This document shows, piece after piece, positions 416 through 49,543 of a stretch of DNA of 64,000 nucleotides; within the stretch, counting starts at the first letter, position 1; each line of letters begins with the position of its first letter. The stretch covers positions 1-64,000 of the forward strand of contig VFJQ01000093.1 in assembly GCA_009885995.1 (NCBI GenBank), read 5' to 3'. Under the pieces are notes generated by a model. The model was not told the DNA's origin and made no database searches. It worked only from the letters and a program-made list of their open reading frames with translations. The position numbers and the translations under genes were made by a program. This DNA comes from Verrucomicrobiota bacterium. Its GTDB lineage: Bacteria; Verrucomicrobiota; Verrucomicrobiia; Chthoniobacterales; Chthoniobacteraceae.

Positions 416-1357
416 ATGCCTAATGCAGATGCTCTCCTTAAATTTTTCGGTGAAAGAGTCAGAGAACTTCGGAAGCAGAAATCCCTTTCCCAAGAGGATT
501 TCTCCTTCGAGTGCAATCTTGACCGCACATACATTTCCGACATCGAACTCGGGAAGCGAAATATCAGTCTCGTCAACGTTACGTCCATCGCCTCGGCGCT
601 GGAGGTTCCCGTTGCAAAGCTCTTCATTGGTTTTGCGGGTGATAAATCACCAGCCGAAAAATCCCCATCGGCAATATACAAAATCAGAGAGCCTTTTCAG
701 ATCAAGTGTGGCTTCACGGTGTCCGGGTCCGATGTTGCTCACGCCGCGACTCTCACATCGGCTCAACTTGAGGCACTACCGTTTACACTATTTCAGAGCA
801 TCGATCTCAAGTCGTTAAGCGGTATGGTAGGAGCACTGTTCGCAAGTAACTTAGCAAGGCAAGTAGGCGCGATCGTGAATCCGATTGAAAAAGGACACCC
901 AGATATCCTGCCGCGATCGGCCGCAAATGCTTCGGAACCAAAGCTGCGAAATTATCCTGAAGGTTTGGAGATTAAATGCACAGTCGGGAACGTCGCAAAG
1001 GGAAGCAAACTGCTACCCGGCCAACCTCGCTTGGGAGCGCTAAGTGGCATTACCTGGCAGGCTCATCATCGTGAAGTAACAGGCTTTCTTGGATTGGTTA
1101 TTGATTTCGCTGGTGTAGAGCGGGACGACAAGCGCTTCCCTATGATTACAGCAGCATTCTTTTCAAACGAATTGGCAGTAGAAGATTGGGGTGCGATCAG
1201 CGGAACGACCGGTCGGAACACCAAAGTCACAGGCCTGCGCTCGACTGGGAAAGGAAAACTCGCTGCTGGATGGATCATCTCCCTGCGCGAAGATGGCTAC
1301 GACGTGAAATACCGGAAATATCTCCCCCTCGCCGCGGAGCTTTCCGAAAACGACTAA
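416..1357 (+). CDS. Controller-restriction endonuclease fusion protein (type II R-M)
   Basis: This 313-aa protein joins two parts. Residues 8-70 are an XRE-family helix-turn-helix with the signature of R-M controller proteins (SQEDFSFECNLDRTYISDIE, then RNISL). Residues 80-313 look like a PD-(D/E)xK nuclease: Pro162-Asp163 and Glu185-Ile-Lys187 supply the metal-binding motif at normal spacing. Controllers are usually about 80-aa separate proteins, so this is a natural C-R fusion, a rare arrangement known from a few R-M families. The likely role is to cut DNA unprotected by the neighbouring methyltransferase and to regulate its own promoter through the palindrome at 366-391. Base composition is well below the flanking genes, which suggests transfer. 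The recognition sequence cannot be inferred. Confidence 0.85.
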   Translation: MPNADALLKFFGERVRELRKQKSLSQEDFSFECNLDRTYISDIELGKRNISLVNVTSIASALEVPVAKLFIGFAGDKSPAEKSPSAIYKIREPFQIKCGFTVSGSDVAHAATLTSAQLEALPFTLFQSIDLKSLSGMVGALFASNLARQVGAIVNPIEKGHPDILPRSAANASEPKLRNYPEGLEIKCTVGNVAKGSKLLPGQPRLGALSGITWQAHHREVTGFLGLVIDFAGVERDDKRFPMITAAFFSNELAVEDWGAISGTTGRNTKVTGLRSTGKGKLAAGWIISLREDGYDVKYRKYLPLAAELSEND

Positions 1358-1368
1358 CTTTACCTACG

Positions 1369-2082
1369 ATGTTTTACTACTACGGCCGAAAAAAACAGAT
1401 AGTCCGACGATACCCTTCGCCAAACTATGATACAATTGTTGAGCCGTTCGCTGGATCGGCGGCATATTCCCTCCATGCCGATAACTGGAAGCGGAACGTT
1501 ATTTTGGTCGAGAAAGACGAGAAAGTAGCGGGTATTTGGAAATGGCTAATTCATGAAGCCACGCCACGGGAGATAGAAAGCTTGCCGGAACTAGAGGTGG
1601 GCCAAAAGAGTTCAGAGTTCCTGCATATCATTCATGCCGCAACGAAGATGGCATTTCATTTTAAGACCATTAAGGTGACCCCGGTGCTGGCGCGAAATTG
1701 GGAGATAAGCAGGCGCCACATGCTTCTCAATCTCCACAAGATTAAGCATTGGAAAATTATTTGCGGCGATTACCAAGAGGCGCCGAACTGTCGAGCAACG
1801 TGGTTTATTGACCCTCCATATCGCGGCGACTCGGGGTTGGGTTATCGGCACGGCAGTAAAGACCTTGATTACAATCATCTTGCCAGTTGGGCGATCCAAC
1901 GGAAAGGGGAGGTTCTTTTCTGCGAAGGCTCCGAGGGCAACTATTTGCCATTTAGACCGCTTGTTGAACAAAAAGGGGTGGCCGGAAAAGTGAGCCGTGA
2001 GGTTTTGTTTTATCAGAGTTCGATCAAACACCCACAAACGGAAATGCCGTTTGTAGCCAGTCCGACGGTGGCTTCAAGGTAG
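1369..2082 (+). CDS. DNA adenine N6-methyltransferase, Dam/D12 family (cognate modification enzyme)
   Basis: This 237-aa protein begins 11 bp after the C-R fusion. It carries the SAM-binding motif I (VEPFAGSAAY, residues 24-33) and the catalytic motif IV DPPY (148-151) of the alpha class, D12-type adenine methyltransferases that include Dam and M.EcoRV. It should protect the host at the site cut by the upstream endonuclease. The protein is slightly short for the family (usually 260-300 aa), and a compact target-recognition region lies between the motifs. Low G+C matches the C-R gene. C-regulated systems often transcribe the methyltransferase divergently; here both genes are co-oriented. Confidence 0.88.
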   Translation: MFYYYGRKKQIVRRYPSPNYDTIVEPFAGSAAYSLHADNWKRNVILVEKDEKVAGIWKWLIHEATPREIESLPELEVGQKSSEFLHIIHAATKMAFHFKTIKVTPVLARNWEISRRHMLLNLHKIKHWKIICGDYQEAPNCRATWFIDPPYRGDSGLGYRHGSKDLDYNHLASWAIQRKGEVLFCEGSEGNYLPFRPLVEQKGVAGKVSREVLFYQSSIKHPQTEMPFVASPTVASR

Positions 2083-2125
2083 GACCGCTCGCTCCAGAGT
2101 CGCGAGCGTTAACGGAGTCAGTGAG

Positions 2126-2524
2126 TTGGATGTCGATATCTTCGTGCTGTTCGAGCCGGCTCCATTGATCCTCACGCTGACGCCGATCTATGAAGCATCT
2201 GCGAAGCTCGGCTATCCGGCGGAAGGCGATGCCATCCAGAACGAAGGCTGGTCGGTGCAGTTTCTCCCCGCCAGCCAGCCGCTGGTTGCCGAGGCCGTGC
2301 GCGAAGCGGCGACGCGCGAAGCCGCCGGCCTGACCACGCGGGTCATGACTGCCTAGCACCTGATGGCCATCGCGTTCCAGACCGGACGCGCCAAGGATCA
2401 CGCGCGGCTGGTCATGTTCGTCGATGCCGGGATCGCCGACATGGATCGCCTGCGCGACATCCTCGCCCGCCACTCGCTGCTTGATGCGTGGGCGAAGTTC
2501 GAGAAACGTTTCCTCCAGCCATGA
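2126..2524 (+). pseudogene. AbiEii-like nucleotidyltransferase, broken by a stop codon and truncated at the 5' end
   Basis: One frame runs from a TTG at 2126, through an in-frame TAG at 2354-2356, to TGA at 2522-2524. The first part contains DVDIFV, the metal-binding strand of nucleotidyltransferase folds, and GYPAEGDAI..VQFLP. The second continues in the same frame with HLMAIAFQTGRAKDHARL, conserved in the AbiEii/AbiGii-like family, where Glu normally precedes HL, so the TAG is probably a GAG-to-TAG nonsense change. The N-terminal GS motif is missing upstream. The gene is most likely dead. It overlaps the next small gene by ATGA. Confidence 0.75.
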
Positions 2525-2672
2525 ATCCCGATCTTCAGCACATCATCCAAGCCAAGGAAGCGGAACGCCGCCGCCTGCGGGCGCTGCCGTGGCTGGAGAA
2601 GCTGGAGATGCTCGACCGCTTGCGCGAGCGGCACCTTTCGCTCCAGCGGATGCAGCCGCGGCCAGTTTCCAG

Positions 2673-2676
<4 letters not shown>
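2521..2676 (+). CDS. Small partner protein of the nucleotidyltransferase (51 aa)
   Basis: The ATG at 2521 overlaps the TGA of the nucleotidyltransferase frame (ATGA), and its own TGA (2674-2676) overlaps the ATG of the esterase. The product is charged and helical (HIIQAKEAERRRLRALPWLE, then KLEMLDRLRERHLSL). Similar short proteins (K-x-x-R-x-x-L-A-x-L-P-x-x-E-K-L) commonly accompany AbiEii-like nucleotidyltransferases and may act as antitoxin or partner; that role is inference. Whether it is functional beside a broken partner is unclear. Confidence 0.6.
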
Positions 2677-3894
<1,218 letters not shown>

Positions 3895-3984
3895 CTGGTG
3901 TGCGCCCGTTTGCTTGAATCAACTCGTCCCGGGATTTGGTATCCCTTGGTGGCGTGCGGGAATGAGCAAGAATCCGGGCAGGTG

Positions 3985-3998
3985 TGGCCACGTGGCCA
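3985..3998. repeat. 14-bp perfect palindrome
   Basis: TGGCCACGTGGCCA reads the same on both strands. It lies in the short gap between the thiC remnant and the end of the long minus-strand operon. Function is unknown; it could be a protein-binding site or chance in G+C-rich DNA. Confidence 0.4.
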
Positions 3999-4006
3999 AA
4001 ATCATT

Positions 4007-4029
4007 TACGCGACGATTCAAGTCGCGTA
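4007..4029 (-). terminator. Hairpin at the 3' end of the 22-gene operon
   Basis: Arms TACGCGAC and GTCGCGTA (8 bp, perfect) enclose a 7-nt loop, about 17 nt beyond the stop codon of the last operon gene (4046). On the minus strand the hairpin is followed by an A/T-rich stretch with a short T run. It is a plausible terminator, though the U tract is weak. Confidence 0.5.
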
Positions 4030-4045
4030 TCCGTCTACACTTCGC

Positions 4046-5380
4046 TCACCCAAGCCCCGGCACCTTCCAGCCGTCGCGGTAGGCGCGGCGGACGAGTTCG
4101 GTGGCTTTGGGGTGGTTGGTGAATTTCAGCGCCTCGCGGTCCCACTCCAGCCAGTCGCCGGCGAAACGATCGGCCAGCGCGCCGACGAGCACCGTCTCGG
4201 TGAGCGGGCCGCCGTGGGTGAAGTCGTCGCAGGCTTTGCGACCCGCGAGGATGGCGTCCACCCAGTCTTGGTAGTGATTCTGCGGCTTGAGGTCCGAGGG
4301 ATATTTCTCGACGGGGAAAGATGCCTCGGGCAGAACGACGGGGCGGTGAGCGGCGTATTCTTTGAAGATCGAGCCGTGTTCGCCGATCCAGCACGTGCCG
4401 GAATCGGGCAGCTTCTCCACGCCCTTGGGCAGCGTGATCTTGCTGCGGTCCGGTTCGATGCCGCCGTCGTGCCAGGTGAGTTGCACGGTCTTGCCAGCGG
4501 TGAAGGTGCTGCCGGGGAAGATCATCTCGACGATGCGCTTTTCGCCCCACAACGGACCGCTGCTGCCGGGTGTGGTCTGGCGCACTTTGAGCGGCGCGGT
4601 GAGCTGGAGCGCGTCGAAGCTGGTGTCGAAGTGGTGGCAGCCCATGTCGCCCATCTCGCCGACGCCGAAGTCGAACCACGCGCGCCAGTTTTTCGGATGA
4701 TAGGTATTCGCGAGATACGGACGCGACTCGCGCACGCCGAGCCACGCGTCCCAATCGAAGCCCTCCGGGATGGGATCGGCTTGCGTGCGCAGTTCGGTGT
4801 TCTTCGGCCACCAGTTGAGCGGTTTGTTTTCCCAGAGGAGCACTTCCTTGATTTTCCCGATCGCGCCGCTGCGCAAGAGCGCGACCGTCATGCGGCTCTC
4901 GACGCTCGATCGGCCCTGGTTGCCCAGCTGGGTGACGACTCCCGCCTTTGCCGCCTCCTGCGTGATGACGCGGCACTCGTGCAACGTGGGGGCCATGGGC
5001 TTCTGCAAATAGAGATGCTTCTTCGCGCGCAACGTCGCGACGGCGGGCGCGGCGTGCATGTGATCCGGCGTGCCGACGGTGACGGCGTCGAACATATCGG
5101 CGTGCCCGCTGAGCAACTCGCGCCAGTCCTTATGCCGCGAGGCGTCGGGGTAAGTCTTCGCCACCTCGCCGAGGAAGTTTGCATCCACATCGCAGAGCGC
5201 GACGATCTTCACCTTGGTATGGCTGGCGACGCCTTTCATCGTGGCCCCGCCCATGCCCCCCACGCCGATGCTGGCGACCTGGAGCATGGAGTTGGGAGCA
5301 GCGCTGCGGAGGATGGCGGGGAAACCGAGCGCTGCAGCGCTGACGGTGGCGGACTGGCGGAGGAACTGTCGGCGTTTCAT
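4046..5380 (-). CDS. Gfo/Idh/MocA family oxidoreductase, Tat-exported
   Basis: The 444-aa product starts with a twin-arginine type signal (KRRQFLRQSATVSAAALGFP), chosen over an in-frame ATG 36 bp upstream. A Rossmann NAD(P)-binding domain follows (GVGGMGGATMKG, residues 36-47; DVDANF), and EKP-like Lys appears as LQKPMAPT, the catalytic Lys region of the family. The C-terminal half fits the Gfo/Idh alpha/beta domain. Many PVC-group members are secreted and act on sugars or cyclitols, probably with tightly bound cofactor. It is the last gene of the operon, 71 bp after its neighbour. Confidence 0.85.
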   Translation of the reverse strand: MKRRQFLRQSATVSAAALGFPAILRSAAPNSMLQVASIGVGGMGGATMKGVASHTKVKIVALCDVDANFLGEVAKTYPDASRHKDWRELLSGHADMFDAVTVGTPDHMHAAPAVATLRAKKHLYLQKPMAPTLHECRVITQEAAKAGVVTQLGNQGRSSVESRMTVALLRSGAIGKIKEVLLWENKPLNWWPKNTELRTQADPIPEGFDWDAWLGVRESRPYLANTYHPKNWRAWFDFGVGEMGDMGCHHFDTSFDALQLTAPLKVRQTTPGSSGPLWGEKRIVEMIFPGSTFTAGKTVQLTWHDGGIEPDRSKITLPKGVEKLPDSGTCWIGEHGSIFKEYAAHRPVVLPEASFPVEKYPSDLKPQNHYQDWVDAILAGRKACDDFTHGGPLTETVLVGALADRFAGDWLEWDREALKFTNHPKATELVRRAYRDGWKVPGLG

Positions 5381-5451
5381 GGGAGGATGGTGCCGGAGCT
5401 GTGCGGAAACGGTCACTTCAATTCCGCGCGGGAGCGTGGGACGCGCGGTCC

Positions 5452-8391
5452 CTAGTCCACGAAGGCGAATTCGTTCAGGTTGAAGAGCACGCGGCAGAGA
5501 TTCGGCAGCCCGTTCTTCTCCGCGAACGCGACGAGTTGCGTGCGATCCTGCACCGACGGCGAGTGCCCCAGCGCGAGCCGATACGCGCGCTCGACTTGCG
5601 TCGCGAGGCCCGGCTTCTCCTGCTGCACGCGCTCTGCGAAGTGCCGCGCCTGCGTGACCATGAAGCCGTTGTTCAGCAGTGCGAGCGCCTGCAGCGCCGA
5701 AAGACTTTCGTTGCGCTTATCCACGCGCATCGACGGGTCCGCGCAGTCGAGCGAAGTCATCCACGGCTGCGTCTGCGAGCGCACGATGAAGCGGTAGATC
5801 GAGCGTCGCCACGTCTTCGCATCCTCAGGGTTCGCGAGGCCGTATTCGTAGTGCGGCGAGTGCTCCGGATGCTCGATCACGAAGTCCTGCCAGCCCGGCC
5901 CACCCATCGTCAGGTCGAGCTTCCCGCTCACCGCCAGCACCGAGTCGCGCACGGCCTCGGCCTCGAGCTTGCGCCGGTTCTGCCGCCAGAGCAGTGCGTT
6001 GCTCGCATCGATCTTCTCCGCCGTCGGATTGCCCGCCGCTGCCTGCCGATACGTCGCGCTCGTCACCATCAGTTTGTGCAGCTGCTTCAGCGATCCGCCG
6101 CTGTCGCGAAACTCCGCCGCTAGCCAGTCGAGCAACTCTGGATGCGAGGGCAACGCGCCGTTGCGCCCGAAGTCGTTCGGCGTCTCCACGAGCCCGCGCC
6201 CGAAGTGATACTGCCACACACGATTCACGATGCTCCGCCATGTCAGCGGATTCTGCGGATCGGCGATCCACTTCGCCAGCGCCGCGCGTCGCTCGCCTTC
6301 TGCTCCCGCTGAGAACCGCGCCGGTTGAAACGCGAGCGCCGAGAGCGCGCCGGGCCCGACTTCGCCCGTCGGCTGCGTCACCTGCCCCCGCGCGAGCAGG
6401 AAGATCGGCCGCGGCTTCCCGCCATCCGCGCCCGTGCCACGAAAAGCACCGCTGCCCGTGTGGATGCCGCCGGCATAGACGACGCTCGGCGCCGGCAGCT
6501 TCTTCAAATCCGCCTCGACGCGCGCCGCTTCGGTGAGCAGCGCCGCACGCTTCGCCTTCGTCGCGTCATCGGCGAAGCTCAGCAGCAGCGCCTCTCGTTC
6601 CTTCAGCAGCTTCTGCTTCTCGTCCGGCGACTGCGCAACCGGCGCGATCCCGTCGGTGAGATTCGTCTTCCGCCAGCGGGGCGGCGCGTCTATCGAATCA
6701 AGCGCCGTGACCGGTTGCCCCTGCGCGACATTCTTCCCGGCGAGGTCGAATACCTGCATCTCGGCGAGCGCGAAAATGAAGTCGTCCTTTCGCGGCGCGA
6801 GCCTCGTCGCCGTCACTCGCACGTAGCGCCCCGCGATCCCGTCGTCCTTCGCCCCGCCTGTCGTGAAGGCCGCGAGTCCGGGGTTCTTGAAATCGTGCAT
6901 GAACGTCTCGTCGTGCCGCTTCCAGAGCAGCGTCACGCCAGTCTTGAATTCGGGGTCGTCGCTCGCCTCGACTTTGAACCGCACAGGGAATCCGAAGCCC
7001 GCCCCGATCTTGTTGAAGTCGTCGTAGCACGGCAGCAACGCCACTCGCTCGATCTCCACCCGCTGGCCGAGATCGACCTGGACCCATTTCATTGCGTCCT
7101 GCGCCTGCGAGATCGCGCTGTGATAGCCGAAATCCGGGCTCGTATTGCCCTGCTTCTGCGCGGCCGCTTTCGACGCCCCGTCGATTCTCCGGGTAAACTC
7201 CGCAAACCTCGCGCCCGCCTTCGCCTTCAGCGGCGCTTCGACCCCCTCGACCGCGCTTTCCGCGGCGCGTTGCTCGCGCTGCAATTTCTGGAAGCGCACG
7301 TTAAGCGCGTCGTCCCGGTAGTATTTCCGATCCGTCCGATCCAGCGCCGCGAAGACCGCTTGCAGCGAGTAGTAATCCTCCTGCGTGATCGGATCGAACT
7401 TGTGGTTATGGCACTGCGCGCAGTGGACGGTGACGCTGCAAAACGTGCCGATCGTATTCGCCACCATGTCGTCGCGGTCGAGATGTCGCGCGATCTTGCC
7501 GTCCGTCTTCGTCTCCGGCACCTCCATGTGTCCGATGAGATCCCACGGCCCCGCCGCGATGAAGCCGAGCGCCTCGATGCCATCGTGCGTGCCGGGGAAG
7601 AGCACGTCGCCGGCGATCTGCTCCTGCACAAACCGCGCATAGGGTTTGTCGTCATTCAGCGCGCGGATGACGTAGTCGCGATAAGGCCAGGCGTTGTTGC
7701 GCTGCTTGTCTTTGTCGTAGCCGTGCGTGTCGCCGTAGTGGACCACATCGAGCCAATGCCGCGCCCATCGCTCGCCGTAGCGCGGCGAAGCGAGCAGTTT
7801 GTCCACGAGTTGATCGACCTTGGAGAGATCGAACGCGTCGAGTTCTTCCGGCGTCGGCGGCAGCCCGATGAGATCGAAGTATAGCCGCCGGCAAAGCGTG
7901 CGCGCATCGGCCTCCGGCGACATCGCGAGCCCTTTCTCCGCGAGCTTCGCGGCGATGAACGAATCGATGTTTGGTGCCGCCGGATTCACGAGCGGCTTGA
8001 GGCTCCACCAATCGAGCGGATCCACCACCTTCGCGCTCGCGCTGTCGGGCCAAACAGCGCCCGCATCAATCCACGCACGCAGCTTCGCGATCTCGCCAGC
8101 GGAGAGCGGCTCACCCTTCGGCGGCATCTTCATGTCCTCGTCCAGGCCCGAGACGAACTTCACCAGCGGGCTCTCCGCGGATTTGCCCGGCACGATGTTT
8201 GGCGCGTGCTCGTCGCCTCCGGTGAGCGCGACCTGCTTCACATCGAGCCGGTAGCCGCTCTTCTGCTTCTCCGCGCCGTGGCACTTGATGCACTTCGCCT
8301 CGAAGACCGGCTGCACATCGCGAACGAAATCCACCGCGCCGGCCGGGGTGGCGACGACGGATGCAACGATGAGCGCGATGTGGAAACGCAT
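5452..8391 (-). CDS. Secreted PSCyt1-DUF1549-discoidin-DUF1553 cytochrome c protein
   Basis: The 979-aa product has a signal peptide (residues 1-20) and an N-terminal PSCyt1 domain with the haem motif CIKCH. DUF1549 ([32 protein letters not shown]) follows. An F5/8-type discoidin domain (about 430-560; WVQVDLGQRVEIERVALLP) is inserted, and DUF1553 lies at the C-terminus (NRVWQYHFGRGLVETPNDFG; NNGFM near the end). Such proteins are characteristic of Planctomycetes and Verrucomicrobia and are thought to work in extracytoplasmic oxidation or polymer breakdown, with the discoidin domain binding carbohydrate. A second DUF1549/DUF1553 protein in the same operon carries a LamG domain instead. Confidence 0.88.
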   Translation of the reverse strand: MRFHIALIVASVVATPAGAVDFVRDVQPVFEAKCIKCHGAEKQKSGYRLDVKQVALTGGDEHAPNIVPGKSAESPLVKFVSGLDEDMKMPPKGEPLSAGEIAKLRAWIDAGAVWPDSASAKVVDPLDWWSLKPLVNPAAPNIDSFIAAKLAEKGLAMSPEADARTLCRRLYFDLIGLPPTPEELDAFDLSKVDQLVDKLLASPRYGERWARHWLDVVHYGDTHGYDKDKQRNNAWPYRDYVIRALNDDKPYARFVQEQIAGDVLFPGTHDGIEALGFIAAGPWDLIGHMEVPETKTDGKIARHLDRDDMVANTIGTFCSVTVHCAQCHNHKFDPITQEDYYSLQAVFAALDRTDRKYYRDDALNVRFQKLQREQRAAESAVEGVEAPLKAKAGARFAEFTRRIDGASKAAAQKQGNTSPDFGYHSAISQAQDAMKWVQVDLGQRVEIERVALLPCYDDFNKIGAGFGFPVRFKVEASDDPEFKTGVTLLWKRHDETFMHDFKNPGLAAFTTGGAKDDGIAGRYVRVTATRLAPRKDDFIFALAEMQVFDLAGKNVAQGQPVTALDSIDAPPRWRKTNLTDGIAPVAQSPDEKQKLLKEREALLLSFADDATKAKRAALLTEAARVEADLKKLPAPSVVYAGGIHTGSGAFRGTGADGGKPRPIFLLARGQVTQPTGEVGPGALSALAFQPARFSAGAEGERRAALAKWIADPQNPLTWRSIVNRVWQYHFGRGLVETPNDFGRNGALPSHPELLDWLAAEFRDSGGSLKQLHKLMVTSATYRQAAAGNPTAEKIDASNALLWRQNRRKLEAEAVRDSVLAVSGKLDLTMGGPGWQDFVIEHPEHSPHYEYGLANPEDAKTWRRSIYRFIVRSQTQPWMTSLDCADPSMRVDKRNESLSALQALALLNNGFMVTQARHFAERVQQEKPGLATQVERAYRLALGHSPSVQDRTQLVAFAEKNGLPNLCRVLFNLNEFAFVD

Positions 8392-40425: not shown

Positions 40426-40596
40426 GTGGCTCACGCCGTCCCGGGGTGAAGCGAAAGCCCGACCGCGCGCAGCGCAGGGTGGAAGCGACGCCCTCGTCGC
40501 TTCTCCGCAGGTGCGGCGGGGCGCCGCAGGCGGTGAACTGGAAGCGGCGAGGCGCCGCTTCCACCTTCGCCTCACGCCGGGGGCGGCGTGAGCCAC
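40426..40596. repeat. Nested palindromic repeat overlapping the 3' end of rhaB
   Basis: Outer imperfect arms begin GTGGCTCACGCC at 40426 and end GGCGTGAGCCAC at 40596. Inner arms begin GGTGGAAGCGACGCC near 40479 and end GCGCCGCTTCCACC at 40565. The inner palindrome is the same family as the one at 44334-44396. The rhaB stop codon (40572-40574) lies within the right outer arm. Confidence 0.85.
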
Positions 40597-44090: not shown

Positions 44091-44206
44091 ACCACCAAGG
44101 CACCAAGGCACCAAGGGCCGAAGGGGCACTGCGTGAGAAGCCCGGTGCGATCGATTTTGAACCTCCCCTTCGACTGTTCCCTTTGGTGCCTTGGTGCCTT
44201 GGTGGT
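44091..44206. repeat. Palindromic element with 24-bp perfect arms
   Basis: The left arm ACCACCAAGGCACCAAGGCA and on, 44091-44114, is the exact reverse complement of 44183-44206. Each arm itself contains tandem GGCACCAA units. It fills half of the 213-bp gap before the giant gene and could also act as a strong hairpin in RNA. Confidence 0.9.
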
Positions 44207-44282: not shown

Positions 44283-47200
44283 ATGCCTTCCGCCCTGCGC
44301 ATCCTCCTCGTCCTCACTCTCCTCGCCGCCGTTGGTGGAAGCGACGCCCTCGTCGCTTCGGCTGCCGCGCAAAGCGGCGAGGGCGCCGCTTCCACCTTCG
44401 AGATCAAGGACGGCGACCGCGTGCTGCTCCTCGGCGACACGCTCCTCGAGCGGGAGAATAGCTACGGCTACCTCGAGCTGCGGATGCACGAGCAGTTCCC
44501 CGACCGGAAGTTCAGCGTGCGCAATCTCTCGTGGGCCGGCGAGACCCCGCGCGGCATCTCCCGCGCCAGCTTCGATCCGCCGGAGAAAGGCTTCGAGCGG
44601 CTCAAGGAGCAGATCGCGCTGGTGAAGCCGACCGTCGTCTTCCTCGGCTTCGGCATGGCCGCGAGCCTCCAGGAGATGACGGACCGCGCCAAGGACTGGA
44701 CCCTCAACCCCGACCCGGCGCGGTATGGCGCGGAGCCGATGAGCGCGGGGCGGTTTAAGCGGGAGTTGGGGGAGCTGATGAATGCGATTCAGGAGTCAGG
44801 GGGCAGGGGGCAGGAGGCAGGAAAGACTCCCGCAGCGAACCTGACACCTGACTCCCGACCCCTGACTCCTGCGTCCGTCCGCTTCGTCCTGCTCTCGCCG
44901 ATCCGGCACGAAGACCTGCGCGCCACCCGCCCCGGCCTGCCCGACCCGGCCGCGCACAATGCGCTGCTCGTGCAATATAGTAAGGCCATCGAGGAGCTGG
45001 CGAAGGAGAGGGGGGGGCGGTTCGTAAGCCTGTTCGATGCACAGTTCACGGTGGCCTCGTCGGCTGGCACGTCACGGGAGCAGCTTACCGATAACGGCAT
45101 CCTCCCCAACCAATCGGGCTCCGAAAATGTGGCCGCCGCAGTTGGAAACGCCGTCGGTTGGGGCCTCCCGAAGAAGAACAGCTTGGAGACGCAGATCGGC
45201 ACGGCAGCTCACGCTTTCAATTATCCCGTGATGGAGGCCGCCATCCTCCGCAAGAACGCCCTCTGGTTCCACCGCACCCGGCCGGCGAACGAGACCTACC
45301 TCACCGGCTTCCGCAAACACGAGCAGGGGCAGAACGCCAAGGAGATCCCCGAGTTCGACCCGCTGGTCGAGCAGGCCGACGCCGAGATCGACCGCCTGAA
45401 GCGGGCCGGGGCCAGCGGGGGGCCGAAGAAGAGCGCCGGGGCCGCCCCGGACGCCAACAGAAGCGCCCTTCCTGAGAAATCGGCATCCCCCTCCCAAAAT
45501 GGGGGCACCCCCATCGCGGATGGGGGCGGGAAAATCGCAAAAGGGGGCACCCCCGTCCAAAAAGGGGGAACCCCCGCTGCCGAAGGGGGCGCCCCCATTG
45601 TGAATTCCGGTGCCCCCATCCAAAAAGGGGGGGCCGACTTTCAAAAAGGGGGAGTCCCCGTCGCCAATGGGGGCACCCCCATTGCCAGTTCCGCCGCCCC
45701 CATTCAGGCTGGGGGAGCCCCCGTTCCGAAGGATTCCGCCCCCATCGAGAAAGGGGGCGCCGGTTCGGCCGCGCCGGACCTTCCCGTTCCGCAGTTCGAC
45801 CTCGGCGAGAACCTCGAAATCACCCTCTGGGCCGAGAACCCCCTCCTCGTGAAGCCGACCCAGATGAACTGGGACGCCCTCGGCCGCCTCTGGGTCTGCG
45901 GCACCGCCCACTACCCCCAGATCGCCCCCGGCGAGATCGAGAAGGACCAGATTTTCATCCTCGAAGACACGGACCGGGACGGGAAGGCGGACAAATCGAC
46001 GGTGTTTGCGGGCGGGATGCTGCTGCCGACGTGCATCGTGCCGGACCTTGTAGCCACGGCCCTCCGGGCCGTGTCCCCCGATGTGGATACTGCCCCCGCG
46101 CGCCCCAGAGGGGCGCGGCTACAGAGCGCCTGCTACGTCGGCGCCAGCACCGAGATGCTCCACTTCGCCGATACCGATGGAGACGGCCTCGCCGATGAGA
46201 AACGCATCGTCTTCACCGGCTTCGGCACCGAGGACACGCATCACAACGTCCACACCCTGAAGTGGGGCCCGGACGGGCGGCTTTACTTCGACCAATCCAT
46301 CTACACCCACACCCACCTCGAGACGCCCTACGGCATGGTGCGGCTCAATGCGGGCGGCGTCTTCGCCTACGATCCGCGCACCGAGCGCGTGGAGGTCTTT
46401 TGCAAGGGGCTCTGGAATCCGTGGGGGCACGTCATCGACCGCAACGGCCAGCACTTCCTCACCGATGGCGCCGGGCGCGACGGCATCGCGTGGGCCTTCC
46501 CCGGCGCGGTCTTCGCCCCGAGCGAAGGCGCGCGGCAGACCATGCCGCTGATCAGCCCCGGCACGTATCCGAAGTTCGCCGGCCTCGAGCTGATCCACAG
46601 CCCGCACTTCCCCGACGACTGGCAGGGCACGGCGGTCACGTGCGACTTCCGCGCGCATCGGATCGTCCGTTTCGCCATCAAGGATCTTAACGCAGAGGGC
46701 GCAAAGGGCACAGAGGAACGCAGAGAAGGGACTGATGCAAAAACCTCTGCGCTCTCCGCGAACTCTGCGGCCTCTGCGTTAAAAAAGAGCGGCTTCGTGA
46801 CGGCGGACCTGCCCGACGTGGCCCGCACCGCGGACATCGCCTTCCGCCCCATCGACGTGAAGCTCGGCCCCGACGGCGCGCTCTACATCGCCGACTGGAC
46901 CAACCCGGTGATCAACCACGGCGAAGTCGATTTCCGCGACCCGCGCCGGGATAAGACGCATGGGCGGATTTGGAGGATTACTTACAAGGGGAGGGAGACG
47001 GTGAAGTGGGAGGCGATGGCGGGGAAGAAGAACGAGGAGCTGGTCGGGAAGCTGCGCGCCGATAGTCATTGGGAGAGTGAGCAGGCGAGCCGTGTATTGT
47101 TGTCACGAGCGGCTGCGGACGAAGTTCGTGCAGCCTCGCCGTCGCCGGAATTGAAGCCGGGTGAAGCCGCTGGGCGTCCGCGTTCTGTCTTCCACGAACT

Positions 47201-49301
47201 TTCGCTTCTTACCGATAGCCCGAAGAGTGACGTAGAGAAGGTCGATGGTCTCCGGCTGCGAGATGCGATCGGGTGCTTCGACAGTCAGCAGCGGCAAGAA
47301 CTGCTGAAGTCTTCCGATTCCAGAATCCGTGCAGGTGTCGCTCGTTCTGTCGGCAATGACCTCCCGCTTACTCTCGATCTCGACGGACGGCTCGTGATGG
47401 CGACTCCGTTGTCAGCAACTTCGATGGAGGTTATGACATTGCAGTCTTGCGTGGCCGACTCCGCACCGCGCGTTCGGATCGAAGCGATGCGTTCATTGGC
47501 GCGAATTCCGATCATGCGCAGTGCCGACCTCATCCTCAGCGCCGCCGTGAACGCCCCCGCCGACGATCCCTACTACGCCTTCGCCGCGTGGCGCTCGATC
47601 AATGATGTGGCGGACGTGTGGGTGGACGCGGTGCTCAAGGGCGAATGGAAGCCGGAGGGGCGCGAGAAGCAGCTCGAATTCGCGCTCAAGGCCATCGAGC
47701 CCGCGCTCGCCGGCAAGGTGCTCGCGCAACTCGTCGCCAGCGGCAAGGTGCCGCTCGACGGCTCCGGCCCTTGGTTTGAGCTGATCGGCCTCGCCGGCAG
47801 CGGCAAGGAACTGCGCGTGCTGCTCGATGCCATCGCCGGCGGCAAAGTCCCCGCCGCTGCGGAAGCCCGCGCGCTCGGCGCGCTCGTGGAGGCCACGCGC
47901 AATCGCAACACGCGCCCCGAAGGCGAACTCAAGCCCGCGACCGAACTGCTGCGCACCCGCCTCACCCAAGCGGACGCCGTCCGCTTGCTCGGCCTGTGGA
48001 AGCTGACCGACCCGATGCCGGAAGTCGCCGCGCTCGCCCGCGAAGGCAAGACGCCGCAACCGATCCGCACCGCCGCCTTCGACGCGCTGAAGGCTTACGG
48101 GGATGCATCGGCGATGCGCTTCCTCGATGAGATGACGCGCCCCGAATTCCCGCTCGGCCTGCGCCGCCACGCGCTCGTGACCATCGTGCAGGTGAAGCTC
48201 GACGCCGGCCTGCTCAAGTCGCGCGAAGTGCTGCGCGACATCAAGAACCCCGACGACGCGATCGAAACATGGCGCGCGCTGCTCTCGATCCAAGGCGCAC
48301 CGGTCGCCTTCGCGCACCGGATGCCGCAGGATCTGCCCCCGGCCATTTACGCCGCCGGTCTCCGCGCCGCGCGCGAGGTCGGGCGCAAGGGCCAGGAACT
48401 CGTCGCCGTGCTCACGCCGCTCGCCGGTGCCACCGCCCAGTCGGCGCCGCCCGCGGATTACAGCGACCTCGCCTCGCAGACGCTTTCGCAGGGCGATCCC
48501 GCCGCGGGCGAGGAAGTCTATCGCCGCGTGGGCCTCGCCTGCACCGTCTGCCACGCCATCGGCGGCGCGGGCGGCAAGGTGGGCCCCGAGCTCGGCACCA
48601 TCGGCGCGAGCGCGCCGCTCGATTACATCATCGAGAGCCTGCTCAACCCGAACGCGAAGGTGAAGGAGGGTTACAACGCCGTGAGCCTCACGCAGAAGGA
48701 CGGCAACGTGTCGATGGGCGTGATCGTGCGCGAGAGCGCGAACGACATCGTGATCCGCACCGCGACCGGCCAGGAGCAGAAGATCGCGGCGGAGATCATC
48801 AAGCAGAAGGACAACCTCGGCTCGATCATGCCGATGGGCCTCGTCGAGCAGCTCAAGCCGCGCGAGAAGCTGAACCTCTACGCCTTCCTCGCGCAGCTCG
48901 GGAAGAAGGGCGTCTATGATGCGAGCCGCGGCCACATCGCGCGGACGTGGTGGCTCTCCGACACGCCAGACGCGAAGGCTGCCAAGGCCGCCGTCTTCCC
49001 GAACGTCGATGGCCGCCTGCCGCGTGAGCGCCTCGCCGAGAGCGTGGCGATCTTCGCCGGGGCGCACGCCGTCTTCGCCTCCACGAAGCTCACCGTCGCC
49101 GCGCCCACCAAGACGCAGCTCCTCCTCACCGGCGTGCGCGAAGCGTGGCTCGACGGGAAACCGCTCGCCGTCGCCAGCGAACCGTCGCCGAGCGTGGAGC
49201 TGAGCGCGGGCGATCACACCTTCACCGTGAAGCTCGACGCAAAGCAGCTCCCCGAAGTGCTGCGCGCCGAAGCGGCGAACACGCGCTTCCTCACCGAGTA
49301 G
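44283..49301 (+). CDS. Giant secreted SGNH / PVC dehydrogenase / HEAT / cytochrome c fusion (1672 aa)
   Basis: Domains in order: signal peptide (1-17), SGNH/GDSL-like domain (about 40-330; DRVLLLGDTLLERENSYGYL, VFLGFGMAAS), a linker of 7-residue repeats (406-493), PVC-type propeller (about 505-900; GPDGRLYFDQSIYTHTHLET, KLGPDGALYIADWTNPVI), HEAT-like repeats (about 920-1390), haem-binding domain with CTVCH (near 1420), and a C-terminal beta-rich region. Four distinct palindromic elements are translated in frame (codons 18-38, 170-197, about 590-614, 802-834). The SGNH part may hydrolyse an ester and the rest oxidise the product, with electrons leaving through haem. Confidence 0.88.
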   Translation: MPSALRILLVLTLLAAVGGSDALVASAAAQSGEGAASTFEIKDGDRVLLLGDTLLERENSYGYLELRMHEQFPDRKFSVRNLSWAGETPRGISRASFDPPEKGFERLKEQIALVKPTVVFLGFGMAASLQEMTDRAKDWTLNPDPARYGAEPMSAGRFKRELGELMNAIQESGGRGQEAGKTPAANLTPDSRPLTPASVRFVLLSPIRHEDLRATRPGLPDPAAHNALLVQYSKAIEELAKERGGRFVSLFDAQFTVASSAGTSREQLTDNGILPNQSGSENVAAAVGNAVGWGLPKKNSLETQIGTAAHAFNYPVMEAAILRKNALWFHRTRPANETYLTGFRKHEQGQNAKEIPEFDPLVEQADAEIDRLKRAGASGGPKKSAGAAPDANRSALPEKSASPSQNGGTPIADGGGKIAKGGTPVQKGGTPAAEGGAPIVNSGAPIQKGGADFQKGGVPVANGGTPIASSAAPIQAGGAPVPKDSAPIEKGGAGSAAPDLPVPQFDLGENLEITLWAENPLLVKPTQMNWDALGRLWVCGTAHYPQIAPGEIEKDQIFILEDTDRDGKADKSTVFAGGMLLPTCIVPDLVATALRAVSPDVDTAPARPRGARLQSACYVGASTEMLHFADTDGDGLADEKRIVFTGFGTEDTHHNVHTLKWGPDGRLYFDQSIYTHTHLETPYGMVRLNAGGVFAYDPRTERVEVFCKGLWNPWGHVIDRNGQHFLTDGAGRDGIAWAFPGAVFAPSEGARQTMPLISPGTYPKFAGLELIHSPHFPDDWQGTAVTCDFRAHRIVRFAIKDLNAEGAKGTEERREGTDAKTSALSANSAASALKKSGFVTADLPDVARTADIAFRPIDVKLGPDGALYIADWTNPVINHGEVDFRDPRRDKTHGRIWRITYKGRETVKWEAMAGKKNEELVGKLRADSHWESEQASRVLLSRAAADEVRAASPSPELKPGEAAGRPRSVFHELSLLTDSPKSDVEKVDGLRLRDAIGCFDSQQRQELLKSSDSRIRAGVARSVGNDLPLTLDLDGRLVMATPLSATSMEVMTLQSCVADSAPRVRIEAMRSLARIPIMRSADLILSAAVNAPADDPYYAFAAWRSINDVADVWVDAVLKGEWKPEGREKQLEFALKAIEPALAGKVLAQLVASGKVPLDGSGPWFELIGLAGSGKELRVLLDAIAGGKVPAAAEARALGALVEATRNRNTRPEGELKPATELLRTRLTQADAVRLLGLWKLTDPMPEVAALAREGKTPQPIRTAAFDALKAYGDASAMRFLDEMTRPEFPLGLRRHALVTIVQVKLDAGLLKSREVLRDIKNPDDAIETWRALLSIQGAPVAFAHRMPQDLPPAIYAAGLRAAREVGRKGQELVAVLTPLAGATAQSAPPADYSDLASQTLSQGDPAAGEEVYRRVGLACTVCHAIGGAGGKVGPELGTIGASAPLDYIIESLLNPNAKVKEGYNAVSLTQKDGNVSMGVIVRESANDIVIRTATGQEQKIAAEIIKQKDNLGSIMPMGLVEQLKPREKLNLYAFLAQLGKKGVYDASRGHIARTWWLSDTPDAKAAKAAVFPNVDGRLPRERLAESVAIFAGAHAVFASTKLTVAAPTKTQLLLTGVREAWLDGKPLAVASEPSPSVELSAGDHTFTVKLDAKQLPEVLRAEAANTRFLTE
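44334..44396. repeat. In-frame palindromic element 1 (63 bp, codons 18-38)
   Basis: The arms begin GGTGGAAGCGACGCCCTCGT and end GAGGGCGCCGCTTCCACC, 25 bp with two mismatches. The length is exactly 21 codons, encoding GGSDALVASAAAQSGEGAAS at the signal-peptide cleavage region. It is the same family as the inner palindrome at 40479-40565. Confidence 0.85.
44790..44871. repeat. In-frame palindromic element 2 (about 82 bp)
   Basis: CAGGAGTCAGGGG (44790-44802) pairs with CCCCTGACTCCTG (44859-44871). It encodes QESGGRGQEAGKTP and LTPDSRPLTPA within the SGNH domain, unlike the surrounding protein. The exact ends are uncertain by a few bases. Confidence 0.8.
45498..45761. repeat. 21-bp tandem repeats encoding G-G-[TA]-P-[IV]-x-x heptads
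   Basis: About twelve units cover 264 bp. Most units carry a GGGGG run and a CCCCC run (for example GGGGGCACCCCC), so each is a miniature palindrome. The protein linker reads GGTPVQK, GGTPAAE, GGAPIVN, SGAPIQK and so on, joining the SGNH and propeller domains. Such arrays are prone to length change. Confidence 0.92.
46049..46123. repeat. In-frame palindromic element 3 (75 bp)
   Basis: Terminal arms TGTAGCC and GGCTACA enclose two hairpins, ACGGCCCTCCGGGCCGT and CGCGCCCCAGAGGGGCGCG. The 75 bp equal 25 codons and encode VATALRAVSPDVDTAPARP and GARLQ, interrupting a propeller strand that normally runs from PTCIVPD into YVGASTEMLHF. Confidence 0.85.
46687..46782. repeat. In-frame palindromic element 4 (96 bp)
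   Basis: TTAACGCAGAGG (46687-46698) pairs with CCTCTGCGTTAA (46771-46782), with further GCAGAG/CTCTGC pairing inside. The 96 bp equal 32 codons and encode LNAEGAKGTEERREGTDAK and TSALSANSAASALK, splitting the propeller between VRFAIKD and FVTADLPDVARTADI. Confidence 0.9.
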
Positions 49302-49344: not shown

Positions 49345-49543
49345 AAATGTCCCGGAGGGACAACGGAAATTAGCCGGTGGTGCCAACCACCGGACCAAAC
49401 CCCCATCAATGATCGCGCCCCGGCAGGGGCGGGGGAATTCCATCGCCCCTGCCGGGGCGGGCGCGTTTTTTCGTTTGTGAGATCCGGTGGTTCCCGCTCG
49501 CGGACTCGCTTCACCACTAATATCCATTGCCCCTCCGGGGCAT
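49345..49543. repeat. Composite palindromic element between convergent genes
   Basis: Imperfect 27-bp outer arms (AATGTCCCGGAGGGACAACG near 49346; its complement ends near 49543 with CCCCTCCGGGGCAT) enclose an inner hairpin CCGGTGGT/ACCACCGG (49374-49393) and the terminator at 49416-49471. It occupies most of the 255-bp gap between convergent genes. Confidence 0.75.
49416..49471 (+). terminator. Rho-independent terminator of the giant gene
   Basis: Perfect 16-bp arms CGCCCCGGCAGGGGCG (49416-49431) and CGCCCCTGCCGGGGCG (49444-49459) with a 12-nt loop are followed by TTTTTT at 49466-49471. It lies about 115 bp after the stop of the giant gene. Confidence 0.8.

Follow-up and report, generated by a model that had tools for sequence, protein, structure and literature searches.

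Short palindromic repeats in frame within genes of a verrucomicrobium, and RAYT transposase genes inside the frames of housekeeping proteins

One gene of a Chthoniobacteraceae bacterium contains four palindromic DNA elements, here called E1 to E4, which are translated in frame and which, from their dispersed copies and their absence in orthologs, appear to be mobile insertions. Short hairpins of this sort lie in frame in this gene and in more than 20 other genes of the same bacterium. We consider it very probable that E1 and E3 are REP doublets mobilised by RAYTs, that E2 and E4 are unrelated palindromes, and that what is seen are the frame-preserving survivors in tolerant loops. In the mechanism that we propose, E1 and E3, which are GTRG-tagged inverted hairpin pairs, would be moved, or would have been moved in the past, by RAYT-type tyrosine (HUH-Y1) transposases whose genes lie in the same genome. 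Insertions would strike genes and spacers alike, those breaking the frame or an indispensable structure would be lost, and the survivors would be peptides that keep the frame and sit in a signal peptide, in linkers or in flexible loops. Loop tolerance and purifying selection would thus account for the pattern, and the inserted peptides would stay in the mature proteins.

The host gene and its four palindromes

The window, i.e. the whole stretch of 64,000 nucleotides analysed, belongs to a genome (G000) of 5.94 Mb in 181 contigs, 91% complete, assigned to the family Chthoniobacteraceae and handled here as a MAG. In the host gene (Table 1) the N-terminal half is SGNH-like and the part after it is a PVC-type heme-binding CxxCH protein, with profile scores of 212.6 bits for TIGR02604, 103.6 bits for TIGR02603 and 196.4 bits for PF23500. 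A first, sequence-only reading had placed four palindromic elements in frame within this 1672-codon gene, each interrupting a domain or the signal peptide. Both observations hold: the inverted repeats are where they were reported, the frame is open and the profiles match; E1 lies within the signal peptide, E2 within the SGNH domain, and E3 and E4 within the DUF7133/TIGR02604 domain.

Table 1. Features discussed in the text. Positions without prefix are those of the window; G and C numbers denote genomes and contigs.
Feature	Location	Strand	Codons and encoded peptide	Basis
Host gene, SGNH-hydrolase-like domain and PVC-type heme-binding CxxCH protein, 1672 aa	44283..49301	+		Open frame, profile matches
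E1, inverted REP doublet, 63 bp	44334..44396	+	18-38, GGSDALVASAAAQSGEGAAST	Inverted repeat and genome copies; none in orthologs
E2, palindrome, about 82-87 bp	44787..44873	+	about 169-197, about SGGRGQEAGKTPAANLTPDSRPLTPA	Inverted repeat 44790-44871, genome copies
Repeat-rich in-frame linker between two domains, GGGGGCACCCCC units, low-complexity GGTPI/GGAPV peptide	45487..45760	+		Repeat finder, orthologs
E3, inverted REP doublet, about 77 bp	about 46048..46124	+	about 589-614, about LVATALRAVSPDVDTAPARPRGARLQS	Sequence inspection, genome copies
E4, palindrome, 96 bp	46687..46782	+	802-834, about NAEGAKGTEERREGTDAKTSALSANSAASALK	Inverted repeat, genome copies
E1, second doublet in the window, intergenic, lying downstream of the gene for a sugar kinase	40478..40565	.		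Genome search
clpB-RAYT frame, 1116 residues	G000:C13:50000-55500, ORF 1239-4586	-		Profile matches
RAYT within RecG	G012, G021, G022, G037, G049			Host sequence on both sides
RAYT within AlaS	G011, G021			Host sequence on both sides
RAYT within ThrS	G021			Host sequence on both sides
RAYT within CarB	G022, G044			Host sequence on both sides
RAYT within ValS	G040			Host sequence on both sides
RAYT apparently within PriA	G003			Assembled frame ends within host
RAYT frame upstream of RecF, doubtful	G021

E1 consists of a GTGG-hairpin (44335-44358), a 13-nt spacer and a hairpin-CCAC (44372-44395), for which the repeat finder returned 25-nt arms with 92% complementarity. E3 has the same kind of layout, GTAG-hairpin ... 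hairpin-CTAC, with two unlike stems and GTAG outermost at both ends; the repeat finder did not return it as a single inverted pair, and it is plain in the sequence by inspection. The arms of E2 (32 nt, 81% complementary) are built of 7-bp tandem repeats, CAGGAGT/CAGGGGG, and those of E4 (29 nt, 79% complementary) of tandem repeats of about 9 bp, CGCAGAGxx. The proposal that the four belong to unrelated families is correct in that each has its own dispersed family, and has to be amended for E1 and E3, which are of the same kind, REP doublets, with different stems. In AlphaFold models of the two protein halves (pTM about 0.7, moderate), E1 to E4 fall in stretches with pLDDT < 50, with ordered strands or helices on either side.

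The repeat-rich linker between the two domains had been overlooked in the sequence-only reading. It varies among orthologs and is swollen by low-complexity tandem repeats that are species-specific: GGTPI here, SDEHRSV in G025 and a VPPGSPATV-like unit in G011. Just upstream of the host gene (44091-44206) lies an intergenic palindrome of CACCAAGG tandem units, its inverted arms being made of tandem units as in E2 and E4.

Dispersed copies, reading frame and orthologs

A genome-wide search with each element, as the sequence-only reading had proposed, returned copies elsewhere for all four: about 35 loci for E1 (sequence and covariance search of its own genome), 19 match rows for E2, 17 match rows for E3 and at least 25 loci for E4. 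Because each has many copies genome-wide, E1 to E4 are dispersed repeats and not chance palindromes. Rfam has no family at their coordinates, the only nearby match being Acido-Lenti-1. For E2 and E4, as possible MITEs, inverted repeats and dispersal were observed, and no cognate transposase was found for either; they are palindromic repeats unrelated to the REPs E1 and E3, and we assign no mover to them. A copy of E2 with 90% identity and a conserved spacer is in frame in a paralogous DUF7133 gene (C180:66937-67020), where it occupies the loop used by E3 in the window gene.

In their general form, E1 copies pair two hairpins of 23-24 nt in inverted orientation, GTGG being outermost, GTGG AAGCGGCG CCC(C/T) CGCCGCTT; GTGG stands at the left end of 27 of the 28 aligned copies, the remaining one having GTAG. 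The spacer measures 8-17 nt and has no consensus among copies. A covariance model of E1 added essentially no copies to the sequence search in G000, and gave only weak matches in relatives, namely G011, G017, G019, G021 and G044 (38-57 relatives were searched for RAYTs and E1). With a simple codon-usage model trained on the window and backed by profile matches, 27 of the 35 loci were called in frame within genes and seven intergenic, one near an ORF end being unclear. Hosts with profile matches, which mostly flank the insert on both sides, are ClpB, MoaA, MiaB, MnmA, MetG (methionyl-tRNA synthetase) and CarB, and the gene of the aconitase AcnA has two in-frame copies. Further hosts are an aldehyde dehydrogenase (ALDH), a phosphohexomutase, sulfatases, PSD1 proteins, a PQQ dehydrogenase, an HI0933-type flavoprotein, a glycosyltransferase and others. 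A gene for an FAD-dependent oxidoreductase (G000:C38:20202 and 20492) appears to hold E1 and E3-type doublets in frame, as a second gene with two families. The isolate Chthoniobacter flavus served as a control; the E1-like doublets examined there had no spanning coding frame.

Lengths that are multiples of three had been noted for three of the elements. The copies show that this is no property of the elements, as E1 cores measure 55-63 bp and occupy all three classes modulo 3; the frame is therefore kept by selection and not by a length-tuned element, and length tuning to multiples of three is ruled out. Intragenic E1 copies use three entry frames (GGS.., VEA.., LWKR..) and three exit frames (..AAST, ..PLPP, ..RFH). 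The probability of finding 27 out of 27 in frame at random is ~1e-13, a value to be read with caution, since a locus counted as intragenic only if an open frame spanned it. No clear out-of-frame copy was seen, and C26:72727 may be one. The sequence-only reading had left the choice between selection that retains only in-frame insertions and elements tuned to be tolerated in protein, and it is the former that finds support, given the mixed E1 lengths, the use of all frames and the distribution of E4 (24 of 25 loci intergenic, one within a gene). A wider form of tuning, according to which lengths and sequences evolved for in-frame insertion, so that entering genes would be a strategy beyond the mere survival of harmless copies, seems to us distinctly unlikely. 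E4 of the same genome argues against it, as do the E1 lengths, and stop-poor hairpins follow from 65% G+C; it draws on E1 being stop-free in the frames used, on all entry and exit frames being usable and on E1 being, if anything, over-represented in genes. This density is about 1.7 times that outside genes, in a search whose first query itself came from an intragenic copy, and is higher than selection on random insertion would leave; it may reflect target preference or adaptation of the element. Within the survivor scheme that we prefer, E1 probably persists unusually well in genes by virtue of GC-rich hairpins free of stops in the used frames, encoding small peptides rich in Gly, Ala, Ser and Pro.

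The net gain at E1 sites is 14 residues on average (SD 3, n = 11), below the 19-20 codons of the element (p about 2e-4) and not different from the 15-16 residues of the two hairpins alone. Insertion is thus not a clean addition, and would have involved the replacement of about five host codons or a spacer that comes from the host. The latter would mean that each E1 is two separate 23-24-nt REP hairpins bracketing a native stretch of 8-17 nt, which we regard as unlikely, if the least unlikely of the alternatives to our reading. It is favoured, besides the net gain, by the lack of spacer conservation among copies, by the aconitase spacer SAGGE, which resembles the native loop SSGDT, and by a PDB alignment of CarB that sets SNE on SND with eight-residue gaps on each side. 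The spacer codons, however, look non-native, with a third-position G+C of 0.61 versus about 0.87 in the flanks and -0.15 versus about +0.5 bits per codon, the MiaB and MetG loops do not fit, and the E2 spacer is conserved between its two compared copies. That all spacers, of E1, E2 and E4, are host DNA, which is attractive by eye, was rejected on the E2 spacer and the E1 codon usage, and bracketing was kept as a rival for E1 only.

Comparison with orthologs, also proposed in the sequence-only reading, found the peptides of E1 to E4 in none of about 18 family orthologs of the host gene in the alignment, and E3 and E4 were absent from 10 further verrucomicrobial orthologs. Likewise, at the 13 E1 sites compared, E1 was absent in every relative examined; Chthoniobacter flavus Ellin428, of the Chthoniobacteraceae, is one of the relatives compared. 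Other elements occur at the same loops. The CarB and MetRS of G021 carry other inserts at the E1 sites, the one in CarB being an 84-nt palindrome, and the host-gene ortholog of the same genome has a GTAG REP doublet at the E3 site. In G025 one repeat family occupies both the E2 and E3 sites; the copy at the E2 site, a palindrome of 102 nt, reaches an inverted-repeat score of 83 versus a shuffled maximum of 30, and the second copy does not score above shuffles yet folds strongly. The insert in the aconitase of G028, that in MnmA of C. flavus and that at the E4 site of G021 are not palindromic, and for several other inserts in relatives the simple inverted-repeat score was not above shuffles.

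That the peptides are ancestral protein sequence that only looks repetitive is hardly credible. The linker is low-complexity in several orthologs too, which would suit such a history, and for E1 to E4 themselves it is refuted by their absence from orthologs and by the occurrence of the same DNA at many unrelated places. An assembly or binning artefact of the MAG, in which repeats were mis-joined, is also very improbable. Short inverted repeats can mislead assemblers and the genome is in 181 contigs; against this, the frame is kept in 27 genes, which is not expected of mis-joins, and in assemblies made independently the same loops hold other palindromes, and clpB has a RAYT at the same position (see below).

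RAYT transposases and their positions inside housekeeping proteins

The source genome has eight Y1-transposase matches. E1 copies flank one of them (C13:52333-52608), which matches NF047646 'REP_Tyr_transpos', and E3 copies flank another (C85:33336-33542); by this arrangement, the two are the likely cognate RAYTs of E1 and E3, respectively. The sequence-only reading could not have recognised two of the families as REP doublets with such transposases, one of which is in clpB. The RAYT of E1 is in frame within clpB, between E1 repeats, in the order ClpB 1-518, REPs, RAYT (NF047646), REPs, ClpB 516-852. The composite frame scores 1344 bits as ClpB versus a cut-off of 1232 and is the sole ClpB-grade match in G000, where the remaining Clp homolog (C15) scores far under the cut-off. 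G011 (C42) and G021 (C17) have a RAYT with REPs in frame at the same place within clpB, in the linker preceding the second nucleotide-binding domain, and most relatives have plain ClpB at this position. The RAYT inside clpB probably moves E1, as its flanking repeats suggest. A free-standing RAYT with long inverted repeats (G000:C16:14520-14750) adjoins a thrS-like gene; in G021 a RAYT is inside thrS.

Further RAYTs within proteins were identified by profile scans (Pfam, NCBIfam), with host sequence on both sides for RecG, AlaS, ThrS, CarB and ValS (Table 1). In addition, a RAYT ends a 916-residue frame in G036 (C17, ORF 2883-5630, minus strand), the strongly coding first half of which matches no NCBIfam or Pfam family. 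The HxH motif is present in all embedded RAYTs and a Y-x-x-NP-type motif in all but that of ValS; most of their NF047646 matches fall just under the 80-bit cut-off. Inverted REP-like hairpins flank almost all of them inside the host frame, with scores of 53-119 versus shuffled maxima near 27. These hairpins are weaker for CarB of G044, for G036 and for ValS, and none was detectable at the PriA RAYT of G003. None of the families that the embedded proteins matched in Pfam and NCBIfam was a Hint/intein splicing family. The position of the RAYT is constant within each host compared, i.e. RecG, AlaS, CarB and ClpB. A tree built from 28 RAYTs groups the ClpB copies in one clade (support 0.996); another clade (0.96) consists only of embedded copies, with those of AlaS, ThrS and PriA nested among those of RecG and with weakly supported inner nodes. 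This nesting suggests moves between essential genes.

The RAYT inside ClpB could instead be a domesticated functional domain selected by the host, with the REPs as by-products. We find this improbable, slightly more so than bracketing. The intact HUH and Tyr motifs, the shared position in three species and the monophyly of the ClpB RAYTs fit domestication; however, divergence is faster in the RAYT part than in ClpB (0.59 versus 0.83 identical columns), REPs bound the RAYT like a mobile unit, other RAYTs do likewise in unrelated proteins, and most relatives have an ordinary ClpB. We lean instead towards a Verrucomicrobiota group of RAYTs that, with its REPs, lives in frame inside the indispensable ClpB, RecG, AlaS, ThrS, CarB, ValS and PriA, in each host at a single fixed site. 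This group would gain expression from the host promoter and protection from deletion, would have moved between essential genes, and would have scattered in-frame doublets such as E1 as its offspring.

Relation to described elements

A verrucomicrobial set of such elements in one gene had looked undescribed. For Verrucomicrobia this does not stand: REP dimers that lie within genes, keep the frame and span 20-30 codons are on record from several phyla and are most abundant in Opitutus terrae (Di Nocera et al. 2013, PMC3733652), and the basic finding of in-frame REPs in a verrucomicrobium belongs there. As described in that study, the Opitutus dimers resemble ours in being tagged hairpin dimers in frame, adding 20-30 residues, with sometimes two per gene; the GTAG-20 family is mostly GTGG-tagged, and different REPs are found at about the same recB site in two Xanthomonas. 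According to the same account the REPs of O. terrae are mostly intergenic, whereas about 80% of E1 copies are intragenic. The element-free orthologs, the replacement by other families at the same loop and the transposase gene inside a host protein go beyond what we found described there.

E1 and E3 are short GTRG-tagged palindromes in many dispersed inverted dimers, with a REP-flanked cognate RAYT gene as candidate mover, and so share with REPINs/BIMEs and RAYT (TnpA-REP) systems the tag, the inverted pairs and an HUH-Y1 gene with copies of the repeat on its flanks. By their name REPs are extragenic, whereas 27 of 35 E1 loci are in frame within genes; intragenic ones are nevertheless accepted as REPs in PMC3733652. 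REP dimers with tags outside usually have conserved spacers according to that source, in contrast to E1, and the RAYT gene of E1 differs from that of REPINs in being in frame inside clpB. We found no description of a REP family living mostly inside genes, and no relevant report of RAYTs in frame inside housekeeping proteins, in a literature searched mostly without subscription journals.

Rickettsia palindromic elements (Ogata 2000, 2002, reviewed in PMC10969869) had been named as the known analogue of mobile palindromes translated in frame, and the analogy holds: of the two outcomes named beforehand as refuting this reading, neither occurred, since the elements do have copies elsewhere in the genome and no ortholog compared has the peptides. 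These elements too are palindromes in frame in unrelated genes, with several families per genome. By the description in that review they are set apart by a length of about 150 bp and a conserved encoded peptide, versus 57-96 bp for E1 to E4 and conservation of E1 in its hairpins only; their hosts are obligate intracellular, and the account in PMC10969869 mentions no cognate transposase. Inteins resemble the embedded RAYTs in being mobile coding units that are read in frame with a conserved essential protein and keep to a single site in each host (for the RAYTs, RecG, ClpB, CarB and AlaS), but the RAYTs show no splicing domain in Pfam or NCBIfam, are bounded by REP hairpins and encode a Y1 transposase instead of a homing endonuclease.

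Short mobile repeats thus appear able to add peptides to essential enzymes proteome-wide outside the intracellular rickettsiae, with a candidate transposase that is traceable. If our reading of the embedded RAYTs is true, it represents a splicing-free way for a mobile gene to reside in essential proteins and bears on why RAYTs persist as vertically inherited genes. The inserts also provide natural loop-insertion data, as they mark sites that tolerate an insert in MetRS, CarB, ClpB, aconitase and others. Annotators should read peptides of the type GGSGASPL...GGGAAST in E1-host proteins as mobile DNA, and RAYT-domain matches inside ClpB or RecG are not errors.

Acido-Lenti-1 (Rfam RF01687; window 49348-49393, minus strand), which is filed as an sRNA, is a dispersed repeat in this genome, with 13 copies over the cut-off. 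Several copies form inverted pairs 100-180 bp apart, and three IS200-like Y1 transposase genes (C1, C106, C130) each have a copy no more than about 140 bp away. Acido-Lenti-1 may be a transposon end or a REP-like hairpin and not a stand-alone RNA.
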